34,531 nucleotides of DNA from the NCBI GenBank assembly GCA_024399065.1, contig JAKSIB010000035.1, positions 1 through 34,531 of the forward strand, in the 5' to 3' direction. Position 1 is the stretch's first letter. The number at the start of each line of letters is the position of its first letter. The DNA is from Fibrobacter sp. Lineage in GTDB: Bacteria; Fibrobacterota; Fibrobacteria; Fibrobacterales; Fibrobacteraceae. The notes below the pieces were generated by a model. That model worked only from the letters and a program-made list of their open reading frames with translations. It searched no databases and was not told the DNA's origin. The translations under genes were made by a program, and so were the position numbers. Shown here one piece after another: positions 3,302-10,957 of this stretch.

Positions 3302-3329
3302 AAAACCCCGCATCGCTGCGGGGTTTTTT
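3302..3329. terminator. Bidirectional terminator between the EAL gene and gltA
   Basis: An 11-bp stem, AAAACCCCGCA with TGCGGGGTTTT, closes a TCGC loop. It has a T-run on the plus strand and a T-rich tail on the minus strand, so it can stop both convergent transcripts. Confidence 0.85.
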
Positions 3330-3334
3330 CAATG

Positions 3335-3412
3335 TTAGCGCTTGATCGCTGCGCAATCTGATCACTGCGGCTCGGCAATGGTCAAGTAAACTTGACCGCT
3401 GCGCTCGCCTTG
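3335..3412 (-). repeat. Palindromic insertion-like element, copy A
   Basis: Read on the minus strand the segment begins ACAAGGCGAGCGCAGCG directly after the gltA stop codon. It continues into a palindrome (3380-3397, GGTCAAGT and ACTTGACC around AA), then CATTGCCGAGCCGCAG, and ends near GCGCTAAC. The flanks match those of copy B at 6828-6904, while the palindrome is a different sequence. The left part also holds partial GCTGCGC repeats. No T-run follows the palindrome, so it is not a normal terminator. Confidence 0.6.
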
Positions 3413-4702
3413 TTATCTCTTATCCCTATCCACCCAGGGTCTCAGGTTTTCGCCGGTGTAAATCTGGCGAGGACGGTTGATCTTGGAATTAGGATCGTCG
3501 TGCATTTCCTTCCAGTGAGCAATCCAACCCGGCAAACGACCGATGGCAAACATCACGGTAAGCATTTCGGTGGGAATGCCCATGGCGCGGTAGAGGATGC
3601 CAGAGTAGAAGTCCACGTTGGGGTAGAGCTTACGTTCGATGAAGTATTCGTCCTTCAGGGCGGCTTCTTCGAGCTTAAGAGCGATGTCCAACAGCGGGTC
3701 CTGAACGTGTTCGCGTTCGAAGACCTGGTACATGAGCTTCTTCAGTACCTTGGCGCGGGGGTCGTAGCTCTTGTAGACGCGATGACCGAAACCAGAGAGA
3801 CGGAACGGGTCGTTCTTGTCCTTTGCCTTTGCCATGACCTGATCGATGGTCATGCCGCTCTGCTGGATGCGGAGCAATGTTTCGAGCACAGCCTGGTTTG
3901 CACCACCGTGGAGTGGGCCCCACAGGGCGCAAATGCCTGCGCAGATAGAAGCGTAAAGGTTTGCCTGGGAGCTGCCCACCATACGGACGGTAGAAGTGGA
4001 GCAGTTCTGTTCGTGGTCGGCGTGAACGATGAGCAAGGTGTTCAGGGCCTTTTCCATAATCGGATCCGGGTGGTAAGGACGAGCCTTACTGCTGAACATC
4101 ATGTTCAGGAAGTTACTGCAGTAACTGCGTTCTGCTTCCGGGTACACAAACGGTTCACCGATGCTTGCCTTGTAGGAGAAAGCTGCAATGGTGCGGATCT
4201 TGGAAATCAAGCCGGCGGTTGTGAGTTCGAAAGCACTGGCGATGTTTTCGTCGTCGTAGAAACGGGGGGTGAACAAACCCACGGCGTTCACGATGGAGCT
4301 CAAAATACCCATGGGGTGGGCGTTAGGCGGCATCTGACGGAAGAAGCTCAGCAGGTTTTCGTGGAGGAGGGCGTTCTCGGTAAGCAGCGTACGGAAATGG
4401 GTAAGCTGCTGCTGGGTGGGCAGTTCGCCATAGATCAGGAGCCATGCGGTTTCGGGGAAGGTGGCCTTTTCAGCCAAGTCTTCGATGGCGTAACCGCGAT
4501 AGCGCAAGATGCCCTGTTCACCATTCACGTAGGTGATGGAGCTCTTGGTGCTACCGGTGTTCAGGTAGCCGTAATCCAGCGTAACAAGTCCAGATTCCTT
4601 GCGGAGCTTGGAAATGTCGAGACCGTGTTCGTTCTCAGTACCTTCGCAGACGGGGAGCTCGAAACTCTTTCCGCCGTAGTTCAGTATTGCGTTATCGGAC
4701 AT
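3413..4702 (-). CDS. gltA: Citrate synthase (type I, hexameric-type length)
   Basis: This 429-residue protein condenses oxaloacetate and acetyl-CoA to citrate. The catalytic residues are all present: H265 in PLHGGANQ, H307 in GFGHRVY and D364 in NVDFYSG. HADHEQNCSTST is near 227-238, and the length matches E. coli GltA. The ATG at 4702 is preceded by GGAGG six bases upstream. The leader carries a heptamer array and a consensus -10 (TATAAT) at 4802-4807. The aminotransferase gene lies upstream on the same strand but is separated by this promoter region. Repeat element A begins at the stop codon, and a bidirectional terminator follows. Confidence 0.97.
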   Translation of the reverse strand: MSDNAILNYGGKSFELPVCEGTENEHGLDISKLRKESGLVTLDYGYLNTGSTKSSITYVNGEQGILRYRGYAIEDLAEKATFPETAWLLIYGELPTQQQLTHFRTLLTENALLHENLLSFFRQMPPNAHPMGILSSIVNAVGLFTPRFYDDENIASAFELTTAGLISKIRTIAAFSYKASIGEPFVYPEAERSYCSNFLNMMFSSKARPYHPDPIMEKALNTLLIVHADHEQNCSTSTVRMVGSSQANLYASICAGICALWGPLHGGANQAVLETLLRIQQSGMTIDQVMAKAKDKNDPFRLSGFGHRVYKSYDPRAKVLKKLMYQVFEREHVQDPLLDIALKLEEAALKDEYFIERKLYPNVDFYSGILYRAMGIPTEMLTVMFAIGRLPGWIAHWKEMHDDPNSKINRPRQIYTGENLRPWVDRDKR

Positions 4703-4710
4703 TGATCCTC

Positions 4711-4752
4711 CAGTTTCAGGCTTCAGGCCCCAGGTTCCAGTTCCCAGGATTG
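4711..4752 (+). repeat. Heptanucleotide array 1 (AGGCTTC-like units) in the gltA leader
   Basis: Successive 7-base units read AGGCTTC, AGGCCCC, AGGTTCC, AGTTCCC and AGGATTG, with one shorter unit before them. They lie between the gltA promoter and its ribosome binding site, so they are transcribed, and they run antisense to gltA. Confidence 0.65.
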
Positions 4753-4801
4753 AAACCGTTGTTTGATTTCTTGCTCAAATTTACTAAGCAAAACTTATGC
4801 C

Positions 4802-4831
4802 ATTATACTAAGAAGCAAAATCTTAGCACAA
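4802..4831 (-). promoter_or_regulatory. Putative gltA promoter
   Basis: On the minus strand TATAAT (4802-4807) is a perfect -10. TTGTGC (4826-4831) is a weak -35 at 18 bp. The predicted leader is about 90 bases and includes heptamer array 1. Confidence 0.5.
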
Positions 4832-4833
4832 TT

Positions 4834-4861
4834 CTCGAACCTCGAACCTCGCGCCTCGAAC
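4834..4861 (-). repeat. Heptanucleotide array 2 (AGGTTCG units) after the aminotransferase stop
   Basis: Four exact 7-base units are seen; on the plus strand they are CTCGAAC, CTCGAAC, CTCGCGC, CTCGAAC. Read in gene direction they are AGGTTCG-type, and they start at the base after the aminotransferase TAG. The unit matches the array that follows ilvE at 12857. Confidence 0.75.
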
Positions 4862-6157
4862 CTACTTCTGCAGGTCCTTTACAGCCTTGTAGATGTTGTC
4901 GAAGAGCTTGCCCAGCTTTTCGGTGGGCACTGCGGAGAAGGCCAGACGGATAAGGCCGCTCAGCATGATGGTGCCGGTGCTGTAATCCTTGATGAGCTTC
5001 TGACGGAGTTCTTCGGCATCAACGCCCTTCGGCTTTACGCACATGAAGTAACCGCTGTTGAACGGCATAGCTTCGAAGGCTTCTGCGTATTCCGGATGGG
5101 AAGCGAGGACTTCCTTGATGATGTCGTAGCGCTTCTTGAGGGTTGCGTACTTTTCAGCCTTCTGGTCGGCGTATTCGGCAGACTGGTAGGCGGCGAGAAG
5201 AATCTTCTGGCTGATGGACGGGCCGTTAGAGATGTTGCCACGGACGGTACCGGCGGCCTTGTCTTCCAGAGCCTTCAGCTGGGCGTCAGTTGCACCCTTG
5301 AAGCCAAAGCTCATGAAACCAACGCGGAAACCCCAGACGTAGTCTTCCTTGGTGGGGCCGTCCAGCTTCACAGCCAGCAAGTTTTCGTGGGCGTCGACAA
5401 TTTTTGTAAAGAGGGATTCGCGAGTTACACCATCTTCGTAAACCAGGCCGAAATAGGCGTCGTCCATGAGGGCCACGACCTTGTTGCCGGCAGCGGCACA
5501 TTCGGTGAGGATCTTAGCGATTTCCACAGCTTCGGTTTCGGTGGCGGTGTAACCGGTGGGGTTGTTGGGGAAGTTCAGGAGAACAACCTTCTTGTCGCTC
5601 TTGCCAGCTGCAAGGGCTGCCTTCAGGGCTTCAGTATCAAAACCGCCGTTCTTGAAGGTGTTGAAAGTCTTGATCTTTGCGCCGCGGGCGTTTTCGAAAA
5701 CCAGTTCGTAGTTGTCCCAGTACAGGTCTGGAATGATGACTTCGTCACCGGCGTCCAGGAACATGTAACCGGCGCAGCTAATGGCGTGGGTCAGAGCGCA
5801 GGTGACCACCGGGTTACTGAAGTTCTTGGAGGCGAGGCTCGGGTTCTTCTTGATGACCTGTTCCTTCCAGGCCTTGCGCAGGTCCGGATTACCGAAGCTG
5901 GGGGCGTAGAGGAAGGACTGCTTGGGGAGATTCAGGGACTTGAGAACACAATCCAGAACCAGGGGGCTGCCGTCGTCTTCGAGAGCAGTACCGATGGTTG
6001 CGTTGATGTCGGAGCCCTTAGCTTCGGCACCCTGGCCAAGAATACCCTTGCGGGGGAAGAAGATGGCCTTGCCCTGTTCAGAGAGCATATCGAGAACCTT
6101 GCAGCCGTTTGCAGAAAGTTCGGCGTTCAAGGCAACTGCGAGAGGATTGTAGTTCAT
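4862..6157 (-). CDS. PLP-dependent class I/II aminotransferase
   Basis: This 431-residue fold-type I aminotransferase has the expected PLP contacts: NNPTG at 198-202, MDDAYFG at 231-237, and TKEDYVWGFRVG, where K270 should form the Schiff base. It most resembles aspartate/aromatic aminotransferases of bacteria, but the substrate cannot be fixed from sequence alone. The ATG at 6157 has AGGA at a normal distance. A promoter with TTGCGA and TAAATT lies about 40-65 bases upstream. It is probably monocistronic, since gltA downstream has its own promoter. The stop codon abuts heptamer array 2. Confidence 0.88.
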   Translation of the reverse strand: MNYNPLAVALNAELSANGCKVLDMLSEQGKAIFFPRKGILGQGAEAKGSDINATIGTALEDDGSPLVLDCVLKSLNLPKQSFLYAPSFGNPDLRKAWKEQVIKKNPSLASKNFSNPVVTCALTHAISCAGYMFLDAGDEVIIPDLYWDNYELVFENARGAKIKTFNTFKNGGFDTEALKAALAAGKSDKKVVLLNFPNNPTGYTATETEAVEIAKILTECAAAGNKVVALMDDAYFGLVYEDGVTRESLFTKIVDAHENLLAVKLDGPTKEDYVWGFRVGFMSFGFKGATDAQLKALEDKAAGTVRGNISNGPSISQKILLAAYQSAEYADQKAEKYATLKKRYDIIKEVLASHPEYAEAFEAMPFNSGYFMCVKPKGVDAEELRQKLIKDYSTGTIMLSGLIRLAFSAVPTEKLGKLFDNIYKAVKDLQK

Positions 6158-6195
6158 TTTTCGTGTCCTGTTGAAAAATTAGTTTAACCGGGGGC

Positions 6196-6224
6196 AATTT
6201 AGTTTTTTTTGACCCCACTCGCAA
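6196..6224 (-). promoter_or_regulatory. Putative promoter of the aminotransferase gene
   Basis: On the minus strand TTGCGA (6219-6224) and TAAATT (6196-6201) are 17 bp apart. The leader is about 35 bases. Confidence 0.45.
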
Positions 6225-6324
6225 GGTACGGGAACGCTTCAAACTTGGCAAAATGTCCAAAAATTGGCCTAATTTTCCATAAATTGTATTACAGAAAATG
6301 AATGTAAGAAAAAAGGAATTTTTT

Positions 6325-6594
6325 CTACTTCACATTTTTTTCCAGCAGTCTGCTTTGGCCCGCATTTTCCAGAACGGTCATTTGCGAGATTGCAATTTGG
6401 TTCAATTTTACTAGGCGCTCTGACTGAGGCAAGCCTTCGTTAATCAAGACGGAATTTAGCGATTCCTTGTTGGAAAGTTCGCGTTTTACGGACCAGCCGA
6501 GCTGAGCCTGTTCGGCGGCCTTGAGACGCTGGAATTCATCAATGGCGATAAGCCCGATAGCGTTGGTGGATTCAATCCAATCCGAAACACTCAT
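6325..6594 (-). CDS. Hypothetical protein of 89 residues
   Basis: I do not recognise this gene. The ATG at 6594 (MSVSDWIES) is preferred to a GTG seven codons upstream. No clear Shine-Dalgarno is present, but an AT-rich TATATAGT lies about 45 bases before it. The protein is soluble, mostly helical by composition, with no Cys and no signal peptide. It lies downstream of the broken LEPR gene on the same strand. It could be a small conserved Fibrobacter protein or a leftover of a larger gene. Confidence 0.4.
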   Translation of the reverse strand: MSVSDWIESTNAIGLIAIDEFQRLKAAEQAQLGWSVKRELSNKESLNSVLINEGLPQSERLVKLNQIAISQMTVLENAGQSRLLEKNVK

Positions 6595-6638
6595 TACAAA
6601 ATTTACCAAATACACTTTTGTGCACTATATAAATCTAA

Positions 6639-7021
6639 CTACAAAATTTGAGGTTGGCAAGGCATTGGATAAAATTTCTCGGTAAGACCTAATTCAGCAA
6701 TATCAAGCTTTTCAATATTTTCCAGAGTTTCAGCAAAACCTTCGCCAAGTTCTGTAGAGATCGACACAAAGGATTCAACATAGGTGTCAATCTTGTCGGC
6801 TTCAAAACCAGAAGCGGCATCCATCATCACTACCGACAAGGCGAGTGATGCGAAAACAGACTAGTCTGTTTTCATATCCGAGCCGCAGCGGGAGGCGCTT
6901 AGCGCAAACGGGGTTCAAGATTTTCGATTTTGAAGTTTTTCTTGGAGGTTCTCTTAGCCTTGGAGGACTTAGAAGAGGTGTTCTTGGAGGACTTACGAGA
7001 GTTGTTGTTCATTTTAGACAT
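6639..7021 (-). pseudogene. Broken LEPR-motif surface-protein gene (5' fragment split by a 77-bp insertion)
   Basis: From ATG 7021 a 40-codon frame encodes a Lys/Ser/Asn-rich N-terminus ending NFKIENLEPRLR and a stop at 6899. A second open stretch, from the tandem ATGs at 6827 and 6824, encodes MMDAASGFEADKID and runs to a stop at 6639. The two parts are in different frames. Deleting 6828-6904 (77 bp, repeat copy B) joins them in frame as LEPRLMMDAASGFEADK. That matches the LEPR-type motif found near the N-terminus of very large secreted adhesin-like proteins. Those proteins are usually hundreds to thousands of residues long, so the gene is also truncated at 3'. The first part had not been expected to be a gene by length alone. 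Function is lost unless the short peptide itself has a role. Confidence 0.6.
6828..6904 (+). repeat. Palindromic insertion-like element, copy B (77 bp)
   Basis: The plus strand reads ACAAGGCGAGTGATGCG, then a perfect 22-bp palindrome at 6852-6873 (each arm GAAAACAGACT or its complement), then CATATCCGAGCCGCAG, and ends GCGCTTAGCG. Its boundaries are set by restoration of the surrounding LEPR reading frame. Flanks match copy A but the palindrome does not. Confidence 0.65.
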
Positions 7022-7069
7022 GAGATTAGCCTTTGGCATGCTCTTGCATACTTATTATTAAAAAGTTTG

Positions 7070-7100
7070 GGGAGATCCCAGGTATTCGCCTGGGATGACA
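7070..7100. repeat. REP-like palindrome, family 2, first copy
   Basis: GGGAGATCCCAGG and CCTGGGATGACA form an 8-bp inverted repeat (7075-7082 with 7089-7096) with a 6-base loop. The homologous flank of the second FISUMP gene lacks it. Confidence 0.6.
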
Positions 7101-7113
7101 CGCACAACGGGAA

Positions 7114-7151
7114 GCCCTCTATGGAGGGTTCCCTAGATTAATTTTTTGGGG
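7114..7151. repeat. Conserved hairpin block downstream of FISUMP gene 1
   Basis: A CCCTC-TATG-GAGGG hairpin is followed by TTCCCTAGATTAATTTTTT. The block is repeated without change at 9795-9834 downstream of FISUMP gene 2. The T-run is too far from the stem for a standard terminator. Confidence 0.55.
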
Positions 7152-7178
7152 AGATCCCGGACTAAATCCGGGATGACA
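7149..7178. repeat. REP-like palindrome, family 2, second copy
   Basis: GGGAGATCCCGGA and TCCGGGATGACA form an 8-bp inverted repeat (7154-7161 with 7167-7174) around CTAAA. The GAGATCCC/GGGATGACA edges are those of the copy at 7070. The homologous position near 9834 has only a few bases instead. Confidence 0.6.
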
Positions 7179-7196
7179 ATAGGAGATTTTAAGGGG

Positions 7197-8402
7197 TTAT
7201 TCCACCATTACACAACGAACGGACATTCCATAGGTTTTAAGATCGTTAGATCCATCTGGGCTGATGGAACCGATCATAACATAGCTTATGTAAGAATTTT
7301 TTTCTTCAGAGGAATGTTCTTCTGGGTAAAACCAAGCTGTTTCCTCATTTAAATACCTAAATTTTTCGCTATAGGGAGTTCTAAGTCCGGCCCCAACTAA
7401 AGAATAGCCGGAGGCATTAGAACCATTGAACACAGAAGAACGAAGGCCTTTTACGCCACTATCATTGTCTTCTGAAGTTAAAATGATCATGAAATCATTA
7501 TATGTGAGCAATCTCCATCCTTCGGGGCAAATTCCCTGATGGTTCTTTTGAATCTTATCTGCACAGCTTTCGGTATTGCAACGGCTAGGCAAGTCCATCA
7601 TTTCAGCCCACTGGTAAAGGGCTCCATACTGGTCGCAATATGTGGTATCATTTTTATAGCAATAACGTTCAAGCACGCCATCGTCGGCCTGATCATCGGC
7701 ACCATTGACCATTGTACCAATGTTCAAGTTTTCGGCCATGACCGTTACAGAAGTAGTCACTTTATTAGTGTCCTTACCTGTAATGGTAATGTAGTAGTAG
7801 CTACGACCGTTGCGGGAATCAGTAAACTGTTTGTAACGGTTTCGATCAATGTAGAATCCGCCTTCTAAATCTCCAAAATGGTCGTACGGAACGTATTCGC
7901 TACTGGAGGAAGACTTGGCACTGGAGCTGCTGCTCTTTACAGAGCTGGAGGAAATTCCGCCAATTTGAGTCCATTCCCAATCACGATACTTCTTGTTATA
8001 GCTGCACTGAAATTCGCCTTGATCATCACGATACCAAGCCTTACCAATCTTTCCGTCAATAGACTCATTACAAGGATTCTGAAGGACATCTTCAGCCACA
8101 TTCCATTCAAAATCATACTTGGAATTCTTTGACGAACTGGAGGAACCTTCTTGATTTTCGGTCGTTGACGAGGATGACGAGCTGGACTTTGCGCTAGAGC
8201 TAGAAGCAACAGAGGAGCTGCTCTTTGCTGTGCTGGAAGAGAATTCCTTCTTGGCACTGGAGCTGGAGCCTTCGCTGTCGCTAGAAACTACGCTGGACGA
8301 GGATTCGTCATCGTCGCCACCGGCATTGGTACCACCTTCGTCGCCACAGGCCCCAAAGAAAAGGCTCATGGTAAGCGCGGTCAACCATAGATATTTTTTC
8401 AT
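7197..8402 (-). CDS. FISUMP-domain lipoprotein, copy 1
   Basis: The 401-residue precursor starts with a lipoprotein signal (MKKYLWLTALTMSLFFGAC), with Cys at residue 19 as the lipidation site. Acidic and poly-serine linkers follow to about residue 90, then a short Cys-containing module (about 95-150) and a second Ser linker. The C-terminal FISUMP domain (about 170-401) shows YCYKNDTTYC, YGALYQWAEMM, GICPEGWRLL and a final GMSVRCV. This domain is a large paralogous family in Fibrobacter of unknown biochemical role, probably at the cell surface. The ATG has AGGAG six bases upstream. The first 200 bases, including the leader, are identical to copy 2 at 10957. The module between the linkers differs. 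Confidence 0.92.
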   Translation of the reverse strand: MKKYLWLTALTMSLFFGACGDEGGTNAGGDDDESSSSVVSSDSEGSSSSAKKEFSSSTAKSSSSVASSSSAKSSSSSSSTTENQEGSSSSSKNSKYDFEWNVAEDVLQNPCNESIDGKIGKAWYRDDQGEFQCSYNKKYRDWEWTQIGGISSSSVKSSSSSAKSSSSSEYVPYDHFGDLEGGFYIDRNRYKQFTDSRNGRSYYYITITGKDTNKVTTSVTVMAENLNIGTMVNGADDQADDGVLERYCYKNDTTYCDQYGALYQWAEMMDLPSRCNTESCADKIQKNHQGICPEGWRLLTYNDFMIILTSEDNDSGVKGLRSSVFNGSNASGYSLVGAGLRTPYSEKFRYLNEETAWFYPEEHSSEEKNSYISYVMIGSISPDGSNDLKTYGMSVRCVMVE

Positions 8403-8445
8403 GTGTTCTCCTAATTTAATCCCAAAATTTTTTCAGAATTTAATT
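8243..8445 (-). repeat. 203-bp direct repeat: leader and 5' coding region of FISUMP gene 1
   Basis: By eye 8243-8445 is identical to 10798-11000, offset 2555 bases. It covers the leader, signal peptide and first Ser-rich stretch. A single mismatch at 8242 is followed by further similarity on the 3' side. Confidence 0.85.
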
Positions 8446-8506
8446 TTTATAGGATTCGGCTCCGGGACCCAGGCGACATTATCACCAAATTCTGGGGCAA
8501 AATCCT

Positions 8507-8542
8507 AAAAAAAGCAAGCTCCAGGGCAAAGCCCCAGAGCTT
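8507..8542 (-). terminator. Terminator of a decayed gene upstream of FISUMP gene 1
   Basis: On the minus strand AAGCTCTGGGGC pairs with GCCCTGGAGCTT through a TTT loop and is followed by GCTTTTTTT. Two positions pair only as G-U on this strand and are mismatches on the other, which fixes the direction. Confidence 0.8.
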
Positions 8543-8553
8543 TTTCAAAAAGA

Positions 8554-8646
8554 TTACGCGTTGTTGGATTCTGCAGACGGTTTTGCAGGCTCGTTAAGAC
8601 CAATTTCGATCTTACCGTACTTAGCTATACGTACCCAAAAATACAC
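8554..8646 (-). pseudogene. 3' remnant of an unidentified gene
   Basis: A short frame ending at 8554 encodes VYFWVRIAKYGKIEIGLNEP and then AKPSAESNNA before a TAA. It sits a dozen bases before a properly oriented terminator. The frame runs upstream into the Rpn gene's terminator without an obvious start signal, so this looks like the preserved tail of a gene whose body was replaced. A GTG at 8646 could start a 30-residue peptide, but there is no ribosome binding site for it. I do not recognise the family. Confidence 0.35.
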
Positions 8647-8651
8647 TGAAT

Positions 8652-8679
8652 AAAAAAGCCCCGGGATTTTTCCCGGGGG
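8652..8679 (-). terminator. Terminator of the Rpn gene
   Basis: On the minus strand CCCCGGGA and TCCCGGGG pair around four A residues and are followed by CTTTTTT. It starts about 15 bases after the Rpn stop codon. Confidence 0.85.
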
Positions 8680-8693
8680 TTGAACAAAAAATT

Positions 8694-9494
8694 TTATAGA
8701 GCGTTGATTTGATCTGGCGTAAGACCGGTGCATCTTGCAACTTTTTCCACAGAATCACCTTCAGCAAGCATGGCCTTGGCCAAACGACGTTTTTCATCGT
8801 CAACGCCTTTCTTGTAGCGCAGATTGAGTTCCTGTTCCAAAGTCATATAAGCCTTCTTTGTGGCGGGGTCCTTGCGGTATCTTTCCACAAGGTCATGGAT
8901 TCGTTTCATCTTAACGGATTCATGCTTTTGCGTGGCGAAATACTGCATATACTCGCGAGTCGCCTTGTCGGTTACCTCGGAGTACTTCTTAAATATATAA
9001 AAGTTTTTGTAGCAGAGGTCACCCATCAAAATCCTGGGATTCGTCTCTTCACGATTTTGGAACTTATACACGGGCAAGCCCTTTCCGAAGATATCGTCCG
9101 GGCAGATGAACAAGATGTACTGTTCTTGAAGCTCGTCGTAACTTACGCCCTTGGCAAGGACATCCAGGTCGCACATTCCCTGGTAATAGCGTGCTCGCTT
9201 AGGGAGTTCACCGGTGTCGACCATCTGCAACTCGATATCGAAATAACGGCCTGGCTTAGAAACTCCCGATGCGTCAGAGATTTCCTCCTTCACAGCGACA
9301 TCAAAGCGGACGCTTTTGTGGAAGGGATCCTCCTGTGTGGTGGCTTCGCCGACTACGGAAATCTTGTCGATGGAAATTTTCAGGACATCCTGCAAGAAAT
9401 CCTTTGCCACATCCTCATTACTGAAGACCTTCGAGAACATGAAATTGTCGGTAATATTCAGCTCTTCGTACGGCTTTATTTTGTATTCGCCCAT
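8694..9494 (-). CDS. Rpn-family recombination-promoting nuclease / PD-(D/E)XK transposase-like protein
   Basis: The 266-residue protein opens with the family-typical NITDNFMFSKVF. It has nuclease-core candidates D65 in FDVAV and E88/Q90 in YFDIELQM, and ends in a helical C-terminal tail (LAEGDSVEKVARCTGL) common in this family. Rpn proteins are DNA endonucleases that stimulate RecA-independent recombination in E. coli, and they are often multicopy and horizontally spread. GGAGG lies just before the ATG at 9494. It sits between the two FISUMP copies, next to repeat elements and gene remnants, which fits a role in, or arrival by, local rearrangement. That last link is inference. Confidence 0.88.
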   Translation of the reverse strand: MGEYKIKPYEELNITDNFMFSKVFSNEDVAKDFLQDVLKISIDKISVVGEATTQEDPFHKSVRFDVAVKEEISDASGVSKPGRYFDIELQMVDTGELPKRARYYQGMCDLDVLAKGVSYDELQEQYILFICPDDIFGKGLPVYKFQNREETNPRILMGDLCYKNFYIFKKYSEVTDKATREYMQYFATQKHESVKMKRIHDLVERYRKDPATKKAYMTLEQELNLRYKKGVDDEKRRLAKAMLAEGDSVEKVARCTGLTPDQINAL

Positions 9495-9561
9495 TTTTCC
9501 TCCATGTTAAAAGTTGCGTTTACTATTAACACGCAGGAAAGTTCCAAATAAGCACAGATTT

Positions 9562-9736
9562 TTATGAAAAATTTTGTTTGCGCTGGAGGGACTTGGAAAA
9601 ATTTGATGAGTTGTTGTTCATTGAACGCCTGCGGCGTTAGCGGCGGCGGTCGCGACAACCACCTAAAGGTGGCCATGCCCACGTAAGTGCTGAAGCACTA
9701 AGTGGTCAAAGGTCGTTTAGCACGCTATTTAGACAT
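9562..9736 (-). pseudogene. Second copy of the LEPR gene 5' end, interrupted by repeat copy C
   Basis: ATGTCTAAA at 9728-9736 matches codons 1-3 of the LEPR gene at 7021. It is followed by 106 bp of inserted repeat and then ATGAACAACAACTC, which matches codons 4-7 onward. The remaining frame encodes only MNNNSSNFSKSLQRKQNFS before a stop at 9562, and no LEPR motif is found. The sequence is therefore a diverged, dead duplicate. In copy 1 the two parts are contiguous at 7012/7013. Confidence 0.5.
9622..9727 (+). repeat. Palindromic insertion-like element, copy C (106 bp)
   Basis: The plus strand holds several nested inverted repeats: AACGCC-TGC-GGCGTT, CCACCT-AAAGGTGG, and AGTGCT-GA-AGCACT inside CCAC/GTGG. 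As in copies A and B, a palindrome is preceded by a GCG-rich stretch and followed by CATGCCC, and the end reads CGTTTAGC. The similarity to A and B is weaker than between A and B. An empty site is visible in the homologous copy at 7012/7013. Confidence 0.5.
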
Positions 9737-9853: not shown

Positions 9854-10957
9854 TTATTCCACCTTTACACAACGGACGGAAAGGCCCGCTTTTTTGTATT
9901 CGCCCGAATCATTTCCCGGAAGAAAATTTCCGGTAGAAACAATCCCATTGGAATACGCACCAATATCGGGTTGATTACCAAACTCTACAGGATAAAACCA
10001 ATAAGCACCTTCGCCAATATACTCAAAGTTTCCGTCCTTATTTTTTAGACCGCCACCCGTCAGTGAAAAACCAGAATAATTTGATCCACTAAACTGATAG
10101 GAAGAACGAAGGCCCTTGACACCATCATCATTGGTGTTCGCATGCAAAATGGTATAGAAATCATTGTAGGTCAACAAGCGCCAACCGGTCGGGCAAATTC
10201 CTTGGTGGTTTTCCTTAATCTGGTCTGCACAGCTCTTTGTGTTACATTCACTAGGCAAGGCCATCATTTCGGCCCACTGGTATAGGCCACCATAGCGATC
10301 GCAATTTGTGGTGTCATTTCTATAGCAGTAACGTTCAATCTTTTCATCATCATCCTGATTCCTAATACCACGGACCATTTCACCGACATTCAAGTTTTCG
10401 GCCATGACAGTCACAGAATTGTCTTTTCCACTAGTATCCTTGCCGGCAATGGTGATATAGTAGTAGCTACGACCATTACGTTCATCGGTAAACTGCTTAT
10501 AGGCGTCTTTACCAACCTTGTATGATGCAGCCAAAGCAACAGAATGATCAAAGGGCACATATTCGCTGCTGCTGGAAGATGACTTTGCAGAGCTTGAAGA
10601 TGACTTCGCGCTGGAGCTGCTGCTCTTGGCGGAGCTAGAAGAGGACTTGCTCTCCGAGCCTTGACACTGCGCCTCGGCAATGTCGATGCAAGCATCGCCG
10701 CTGCTCTCGGCTTGCGAGCCAATCACAGAGCTTGAGGAAGACTTAGCACTGGAACTAGAAGCAACAGAGCTGCTGCTCTTAACTGTGCTGGAAGAGGATT
10801 CCTTCTTGGCACTGGAGCTGGAGCCTTCGCTGTCGCTAGAAACTACGCTGGACGAGGATTCGTCATCGTCGCCACCGGCATTGGTACCACCTTCGTCGCC
10901 ACAGGCCCCAAAGAAAAGGCTCATGGTAAGCGCGGTCAACCATAGATATTTTTTCAT
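9854..10957 (-). CDS. FISUMP-domain lipoprotein, copy 2
   Basis: This 367-residue paralogue of the product at 7197-8402 has the same lipoprotein signal and nearly the same first 75 residues. Its spacer between the Ser linkers is different: a short stretch with two Cys (GDACIDIAEAQCQG) followed by four AKSSSSS-type units. The FISUMP domain (about 150-367) has YCYRNDTTNC, YGGLYQWAEMM, GICPTGWRLL and GLSVRCV and is clearly diverged from copy 1. A toxin-antitoxin pair lies immediately upstream on the same strand, but the FISUMP gene has its own leader. Surface exposure is inferred from the lipobox and linkers. Confidence 0.92.
   Translation of the reverse strand: MKKYLWLTALTMSLFFGACGDEGGTNAGGDDDESSSSVVSSDSEGSSSSAKKESSSSTVKSSSSVASSSSAKSSSSSVIGSQAESSGDACIDIAEAQCQGSESKSSSSSAKSSSSSAKSSSSSAKSSSSSSEYVPFDHSVALAASYKVGKDAYKQFTDERNGRSYYYITIAGKDTSGKDNSVTVMAENLNVGEMVRGIRNQDDDEKIERYCYRNDTTNCDRYGGLYQWAEMMALPSECNTKSCADQIKENHQGICPTGWRLLTYNDFYTILHANTNDDGVKGLRSSYQFSGSNYSGFSLTGGGLKNKDGNFEYIGEGAYWFYPVEFGNQPDIGAYSNGIVSTGNFLPGNDSGEYKKAGLSVRCVKVE

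Follow-up and report, generated by a model that had tools for sequence, protein, structure and literature searches.

Introduction

Repetitive extragenic palindromic (REP) elements, with the GTAG and CGTC palindromic repeats, of Escherichia coli, Pseudomonas and Stenotrophomonas are short hairpins that occur in high copy number, at gene 3' ends and in tandem groups, some of them with alternative complementary stems, and miniature inverted-repeat transposable elements (MITEs) are short, non-coding elements with sites that are empty in relatives and direct repeats around some copies. In this study, a dispersed hairpin repeat that shares these traits was analyzed in a 34,531-nucleotide stretch of Fibrobacter sp. 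DNA (JAKSIB010000035.1, hereafter the window), which is contig 35 of the 118 of its own genome, G000 (3.82 Mb, 99.1% complete). With moderate confidence, we regard it as a REP/MITE-like, non-coding, insertion-competent repeat that is read by shape and not by sequence.

Other described systems resemble the Fibrobacter repeat in part. Rickettsia palindromic elements also lie in frame within protein genes, as one window copy does, but their families are defined by sequence, whereas the Fibrobacter family retains its structure and not its stem sequence. Integron attC sites, which carry the boxes RYYYAAC and GTTRRRY, likewise place a variable palindrome between kept parts and have an extrahelical base; they stand in cassette arrays, whereas the Fibrobacter copies are dispersed, and among 144 copies RYYYAAC was found in 0, GTTRRRY in 5 and both in 0 (shuffled expectation 3.9, 7.7 and 0.3). 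Small inverted triplications, as described in PMC13334657, have the U-U'-U order with spacers that is found here, but their parts average about 150 bp, whereas those of the Fibrobacter repeat are short and two hairpins of the same family serve as its spacers. According to the main text of PMC3733652, GTAG REP subfamilies have alternative complementary stems and often provide stop codons, and that of PMC12306157 reports that E. coli REPs at most 15 nt from a stop codon stall ribosomes, with an effect on translation; the word Fibrobacter is not present in either main text, and in the searched text of a survey of 104 structured RNAs it occurs in a reference title alone (PMC2864571). No description of such Fibrobacter repeats was found in titles, abstract openings and top-ranked literature entries, subscription papers being outside this scope.

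Structure and covariation of the hairpin

The initial annotation of the window had described constant flanks around a changing, always self-complementary core, and had proposed that this core is selected for structure or replaced as a cassette. Copies 1 and 2 (Table 1) indeed share the flanks CAAGGCGAG-n-GNN-GC and AT-N'N'-CCGAGCCGCAG around unrelated palindromes. A search of G000 with these flanks, 15–45 free bases apart, was made before any model was built and returned seven matches, copies 1 and 2 included, whose cores were all palindromic, one with a mismatched pair; the reversed control pattern gave no matches in the same search. Looser flanks yielded one further G000 match, and another unit adjoins one of these in tandem. 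Across the genome and the genus, further matches were many and their palindromic cores diverse, so neither outcome that the annotation had held against its own proposal (few further hits, or a single core with random mismatches) arose.

Nine G000 copies, among them copies 1 and 2, were aligned over 52 columns and used to build a covariance model, R1. The hairpin thus defined, H1, is 48 or 52 nt long, with the layout YAA-GGC-GA-G-n-GNN-GC-(core of 22 or 18)-AT-N'N'C-C-GA-GCC-GCAG, in which NN pairs with N'N', the base is closed by GGC/GCC (or GCC/GGC), and the core is a 7- or 9-bp stem with a tetraloop, mostly CTTG, CTCG or TTTA. Embedded in this varying helix is a mismatch signature, consisting of CGAG opposite CGAG, one bulged base, and the double mismatch of GC opposite AT (G.T, C.A). 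GC/AT was kept in 95 and GA/GA in 96 of 101 distinct full-length H1 (from 156 distinct rows), which had 80 distinct cores. The loops were one-sided in orientation (CTTG 50, CTCG 19, TTTA 10 and their reverse complements 0; n = 101), as were those of the exact-pattern scan described below (CTTG 36 vs. CAAG 3 among the matches listed; n = 71). RNA energy parameters reproduced the exact H1 of copies 1 and 2 (z −3.0 and −2.3), whereas DNA parameters recovered the apical stem without the lower part. G.A was the commonest non-Watson–Crick pair of the core in both samples compared.

Two side observations concern the same hairpin. The 5' arm of the core is purine-rich (636 of 795 and 402 of 545 bases in two samples), and in a duplicated stretch of G000 (L051) two changes between C20:56681 and C20:58647 turn, by eye, G.T into G-C and C.A into T-A.

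When the window was scanned with R1 with filters off (23 matches up to E 10), three H1 matches were strong, and the next best had an E of 0.19. Of the three window copies claimed by the initial annotation, those at 3335 and 6828 stood, while the one placed at 9622 was absent from all 23 matches and proved to be a different, sequence-conserved repeat; the true third, copy 3, had been overlooked. Its core is GGCGATG-CTTG-CATCGAC, with the outer pair inverted to GCC/GGC. The shared end near GCTTAGC that had been attributed to the family is no family feature, and belongs to a second hairpin, H2, which is itself variable.

Covariation was then quantified in three sets of copies. In the nine own-genome copies, 98.0% of 147 cells were paired and 12 of 17 pairs varied on both sides; on four of five measures no shuffle out of 500 came up to the observed value, on the fifth 2 did, and pairing dropped to 29–46% when the structure was shifted by 1–3 columns. 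In copies from other species (42 distinct of 49, in an alignment fitted to R1 and hence biased towards the model), 97.7% of 707 cells were paired, 15 of 17 pairs showed double changes (reached by 2 of 500 shuffles), and the covariation score was 0.693 vs. 0.205. The third set came from an exact-pattern scan of a species-genome collection, in which no palindrome was demanded and 80 of at least 120 loci were analyzed. Among the matches listed, 38 of 83 Fibrobacterota cores were fully paired and 77 had at most one unpaired position, a level reached by 0.25% of cores with shuffled letters; NN and N'N' were complementary in 78 of the 83, and 70 cores were distinct. Because the signature is near-invariant while 12 to 15 of the 17 pairs vary on both sides, the core is kept for structure, and this part of the initial proposal holds in all three sets.

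Distribution in Fibrobacter genomes

R1 gave 74 matches in G000 at E ≤ 1 and 63 at E ≤ 2.1e-4. Matches were present in 61 of 61 sampled genomes of the genus, with 5 to 88 each at E ≤ 1e-4, and in 93 of 167 genomes of the phylum, all in one family, f1, 80 of them within the genus and 13 outside it. As filtering was tighter in these scans, with no more than 96 and 35 candidates scored per genome, respectively, the counts are lower bounds and the absences provisional. Of the 80 exact-pattern loci listed, 77 were titled Fibrobacter, Fibrobacteraceae or Fibrobacterales; the three outside Fibrobacterota (Burkholderiales, Bacillota and Acidobacteria), whose cores pair at 1/7, 1/7 and 3/8, were rejected as chance matches. 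The hairpin repeat has so far been seen only in the Fibrobacter family. Viral contigs held 0 exact-pattern matches, and a phage origin was rejected. No Rfam family was above gathering in the window, and over 20 loci only tmRNA and tRNA reached it.

Insertion of a larger unit

H1 is part of a unit with the order U-H1-M-H2, in which U and M pair as a basal helix of up to 7–8 bp. M is the reverse complement of U directly 3' of H1; H2, usually present, is the best hairpin 3' of M; and D is a downstream direct repeat of U. H2 is shorter than H1; a GNA triloop closes it in 58 of the 144 copies analyzed, and in 20 of them a hairpin of at least 4 bp was not found after M. In 72 of the 74 G000 matches that were analyzed for the unit, an M of at least 6 bases was present in 25 (about 1.7 expected) and a D of at least 7 bases in 24 (about 2 expected when different copies were paired). 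Among other-species copies (42 of 49 matches, then the 30 with distinct U), 12 of 30 had D (4.4%, about 1.3, expected) and 6 of 30 had M (2.2% expected). Among the matches listed, 36 of 57 copies had U and M complementary over at least 6 bases (2.2 expected); where at least 5 bases matched, the end of U was 2–3 bases from the following AAGG in 33 of 42, and the start of M was 2–3 bases from the preceding GAGCC in 27 of 42. In the named genomes, again among the matches listed, direct repeats of at least 7 bp flanked 17 of 56 copies (4.0 expected), and most copies had no D. D repeats U in some copies and the bases just outside U in others, which leaves the limits of the unit ill-defined. The idea that M is copied from a full direct repeat was weakened, as the U.M matches stop at 7–8 bases and several direct repeats lie outside U (matches listed). 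At C4:143755, one H1 arm resembles, by eye, a copy of the upstream flank.

Empty sites in relatives together with these flanking direct repeats demonstrate that units insert. Copy 1 is absent at the orthologous site of G025, where the flanks are about 96% identical and AGATAA directly adjoins CATTGAAAAA, vs. 78 extra bases in G000; the same H1 is present at this site in G024 and, by eye, an H2 remnant alone in G054. Other empty sites were found too, those in G025 including C2:1957, C4:143755, C2:72029 and C12:70072. ACAAAGAACCC flanks the C2:1957 copy on each side, within the left arm of a terminator-like hairpin, and G025 has AGAACCC once and no element. The C48:18916 copy splits a Transposase_31 (PF04754, YhgA-like) gene, which has 296 codons in G025 and is cut to 228 in G000 (gene loci L129 925-1815 and L029 1277-2248). 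Two conserved gene ends, matched in 49 and 57 genomes, were read in 30 of these each. There, units are present in some genomes and missing in others, and build short tandem arrays at the stop codon, after which the gene end is often repeated once more.

Empty sites and direct repeats around some copies are also MITE features, but no family-wide terminal inverted repeat was found; the U and M arms, though complementary, differ per copy and often match local sequence, and the direct repeats of at least 7 bp (24 of 72 and 17 of 56) vary in length and place. Duplication and ends are too unclean to class the repeat as a MITE.

Changes of the stem between copies

Orthologous H1 were compared where their length was exactly 48 or 52 nt and their identity at least 62% (14 comparisons at 10 sites); orthologs of other lengths or offsets, at C17:13851, C29:29342, C19:61335, C4:89766, C2:56495, C2:72029 and C42:8865 among others, are outside these counts and were by eye identical or nearly identical. 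Of 226 pairs, 207 were unchanged, 13 had double changes that still pair, 0 had single wobble changes, 5 were single breaks and 1 was a double break, with changes at 17 of 252 unpaired H1 positions and 72 of 840 positions of the upstream flank. Eleven of the 13 double changes came from C43:1841 and from C8:13141 in G009. At the former, three pairs differ from each of two genomes, probably through one event, and the break in the left outer pair is what partial conversion would leave; the five double changes at the latter are perhaps a separate insertion, and at both sites the changes may not reflect plain descent. At C13:1819 and C47:5069, one compensated pair each was changed in place. Cassette replacement of the core, the other half of the initial proposal, is therefore not the rule, orthologous cores being mostly unchanged, and may explain 2 of the 10 sites. 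Among the 101 distinct H1, 29 comparisons, which share copies and are not independent, differed in one pair: 19 compensated, 3 single wobbles (G-T), 5 single breaks and 2 double breaks.

So few intermediates argue against slow drift via wobble pairs as a full account. They are in line with template switching, or fold-back copying, during replication, by which palindromes would be made and repaired without selection: the nascent strand would fold on itself, arm would be copied into arm, and U into M and again into D, giving a U-H1-U'-H2-U inverted triplication. Besides the 19 of 29 compensated differences and the 13 double vs. 0 single wobble changes in orthologs, the missing wobble excess in the second sample of the strand test (see below) and the match of M and D to the local U at many sites fit this account; PMC8794818 reports that template switching creates and maintains hairpins, and PMC13334657 attributes small inverted triplications to replication errors. 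However, the GC/AT mismatch and the tandem GA stay unrepaired within the same helix, a sign that one arm is not simply copied end to end into its partner; the loops keep a single orientation, and the spread of fixed flanks is left unexplained. Template switching as the sole cause is considered rather unlikely.

Position at gene ends

Location was analyzed for the 58 of 74 own copies with enough flank, using open reading frames (ORFs) of at least 100 codons, so short genes were missed. Many copies lie at stop codons: a sense stop codon ended 0–11 bases before GG in 20 of 58 (offset 0 in 6, −2 in 1, −3 in 5, −5 in 4, −6 in 2 and −11 in 2, two of those at −5 being within one duplicated stretch). 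An antisense ORF ended at most 75 bases from the H1 end in 9, and 5 copies lay inside a sense and 18 inside an antisense ORF, these containing ORFs being reading frames of at least 100 codons and not verified genes. In the window, the stop codon TAA of the citrate synthase gene directly adjoins copy 1, and since a terminator-like hairpin comes after copy 1, this copy is probably part of the 3' untranslated region (UTR) of the citrate synthase mRNA; terminator-like sites in the region were no commoner than in shuffled sequence (16 vs. 14.0).

Such positions would suit a structured RNA of mRNA 3' ends, in which U.M and M.D form alternative pairings at the stop codon, while the hairpin shields the mRNA or affects ribosomes at termination. 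The sense orientation at the stop codon, the place of copy 1 between stop codon and terminator-like hairpin, the full H1 from RNA but the apical stem alone from DNA energies, the conservation of H1 in place at orthologous sites and the ribosome stalling reported for E. coli REPs in the main text of PMC12306157 are consistent with it. On the other hand, 38 of 58 copies had no detected sense stop codon (short genes being missed), some copies lie within genes, either in frame (copy 3) or disrupting them (C48:18916), and the scarcity of D among the listed named-genome copies does not fit the M.D pairing. An RNA role as the whole explanation is considered unlikely.

At some gene 3' ends that are free of the element (L135, L141, L142, L160 and L169), a palindrome extends from the last codons across the stop, e.g., AAGTAATTTCTC-GAA-GAGAAATTACTT in L169.

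Search for a mobilizing gene

The initial annotation had suggested looking for a linked transposase, such as a REP-associated tyrosine transposase (RAYT) or the neighboring Rpn protein. Movement of REP elements by such a Y1 tyrosine transposase would account for the size, dispersion, palindromy and gene-end position of the Fibrobacter repeat, and alternative complementary stems are known within GTAG REP families, according to the main text of PMC3733652. However, the element is present in all 61 genus genomes, and only 20 of them had a match to the Y1 family PF01797 (11 among the 29 best genomes); the 41 carriers with no match include the other 18 of these 29. The sole PF01797 match of G000 is a 133-aa frame that resembles, by eye, an IS200/IS605 arrangement. 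Of 144 copies, 1 had GTAG on the 5' side of the hairpin foot and 2 had CTAC on the 3' side. A RAYT was thus rejected as general mobilizer, most carriers having no PF01797 match, and the REP/RAYT explanation is very improbable. Although the Fibrobacter family behaves like a REP or MITE, it lacks the GTAG tag, its stem is nearly free in sequence with the mismatch signature kept, and most carriers have no Y1 match; it is not a standard REP/RAYT system.

Spread as a retroposon (a bacterial short interspersed element) by reverse transcriptase was also considered, as the fold and the variable-length direct repeats recall target-primed insertion. The reverse transcriptase family PF00078 (RVT_1) was matched in 31 of 111 family genomes but had no match in G000 and 79 others, and this origin is likewise very improbable. 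As to an Rpn-type protein, a PDDEXK_2 transposase-type nuclease gene (8694-9494) lies near the window copies, and its product is a possible candidate mobilizer.

Weighing of the proposed shape-read repeat

In the reading we prefer, a protein would recognize the mismatch signature at a fixed height on the paired stem of one folded strand. Any stem sequence would suffice as long as it is paired, and copies that lose pairing would stop spreading or vanish; selection would act via mobility, via a role in the 3' UTR, or both, and the folding nucleic acid could be RNA or DNA.

Several results weigh against this reading. Searches of the Y1 and reverse transcriptase families identified no mobilizing gene. 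The strand test, which asks whether one folded strand or a cruciform is concerned, gave contradictory samples (GT+TG 19 vs. AC+CA 2 in the first, 3 vs. 9 in the second). In the other-species copies, the number of further pair types (31) did not exceed that of shuffles (266 of 500), and 2 of 500 shuffles came up to the observed value of a different covariation measure. Orthologous H1 are often identical despite upstream flanks that differ by up to 14%, which suggests a function at the site, or conversion, and not just mobility. As to insertion, direct repeats are found in a minority of copies with varying length and position; at C48:18916, by eye, the insert brought its U along and is not accompanied by a duplication; some element-free sites may be deletions; and at some of them U and its complement occur without H1 (AAGGACTAATTAGTCC in G009 and AAAGACTAATTAGTCC in G024), which does not fit a simple insertion picture and may mark older targets or deletion scars.

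A further reading is tentative and rather improbable: a shape-coded mobile element might write its own target complement. It would need for recognition only the mismatch signature at a fixed height on a stem that pairs, and each insertion would assemble the basal helix out of target sequence in two rounds of fold-back copying (U to H1 to U' to H2 to U). If true, the stem sequence would be free and most copies unique, and host recombination could not easily align them. Dispersed repeats are usually found via sequence similarity, and a family that keeps its shape with a free sequence is easily missed. Dozens of copies in many genomes, with compensated stems, form a natural data set for comparing selection through rare intermediates with one-step template switching.

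Neighboring features in the window

The features of the window are collected in Table 1. Copy 3 is translated in frame, within the serine-rich linker of the Fib_succ_major protein (..GSQAESSGDACIDIAEAQCQGSE..), and copy 2 separates, by eye, two pieces of one minus-strand gene start (LEPR...MMDAA).

Table 1. Hairpin-repeat copies and neighboring features of the window
Feature	Position	Strand	Evidence and remarks
Copy 1, full inserted unit, 78 bp	3335-3412	minus	R1 66.1 bits, E 6e-13; H1 3365-3412, then M, H2, D (3335-3364)
Copy 1 hairpin H1, core GGTCAAG-TTTA-CTTGACC	3365-3412	minus	RNA minimum-energy fold equals the model structure
Copy 2	6828-6905	plus	R1 72.7 bits, E 2e-14; U 6828-6836, H1 6837-6888, M and H2 6889-6905; RNA fold
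Copy 3, overlooked by the initial annotation	10667-10714	minus	R1 54.9 bits, E 2e-10; outside the training set
Terminator-like hairpin 3' of copy 1	3302-3327	minus	Consensus scan
Citrate synthase gene	3413-4702	minus	Pfam PF00285, E 3.8e-134
PDDEXK_2 transposase-type nuclease gene	8694-9494		Pfam-family match; near window copies
Second multi-hairpin repeat, sequence-conserved, non-member	9622-9727	plus	Outside all 23 R1 matches up to E 10
Fib_succ_major protein gene	9854-10957	minus	Pfam PF09603, E 3.5e-16

The second repeat of the window interrupts, by eye, a gene start between ATGTCTAAA and ATGAACAAC. Its phrase CCACCTnAAGGTGGCCATG occurs at 10 distinct places in the examined loci, the window's own included, and a longer exact phrase in 2 of 394 loci. 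It was also seen at L140 102-155, L054 1131-1184 and L036 1453-1471, and two loci additionally have CTTTGGTCACTTAGTGCTTTAGCACTTA. In G025, one copy of the second repeat is nested, by eye, in the left part of an H1.

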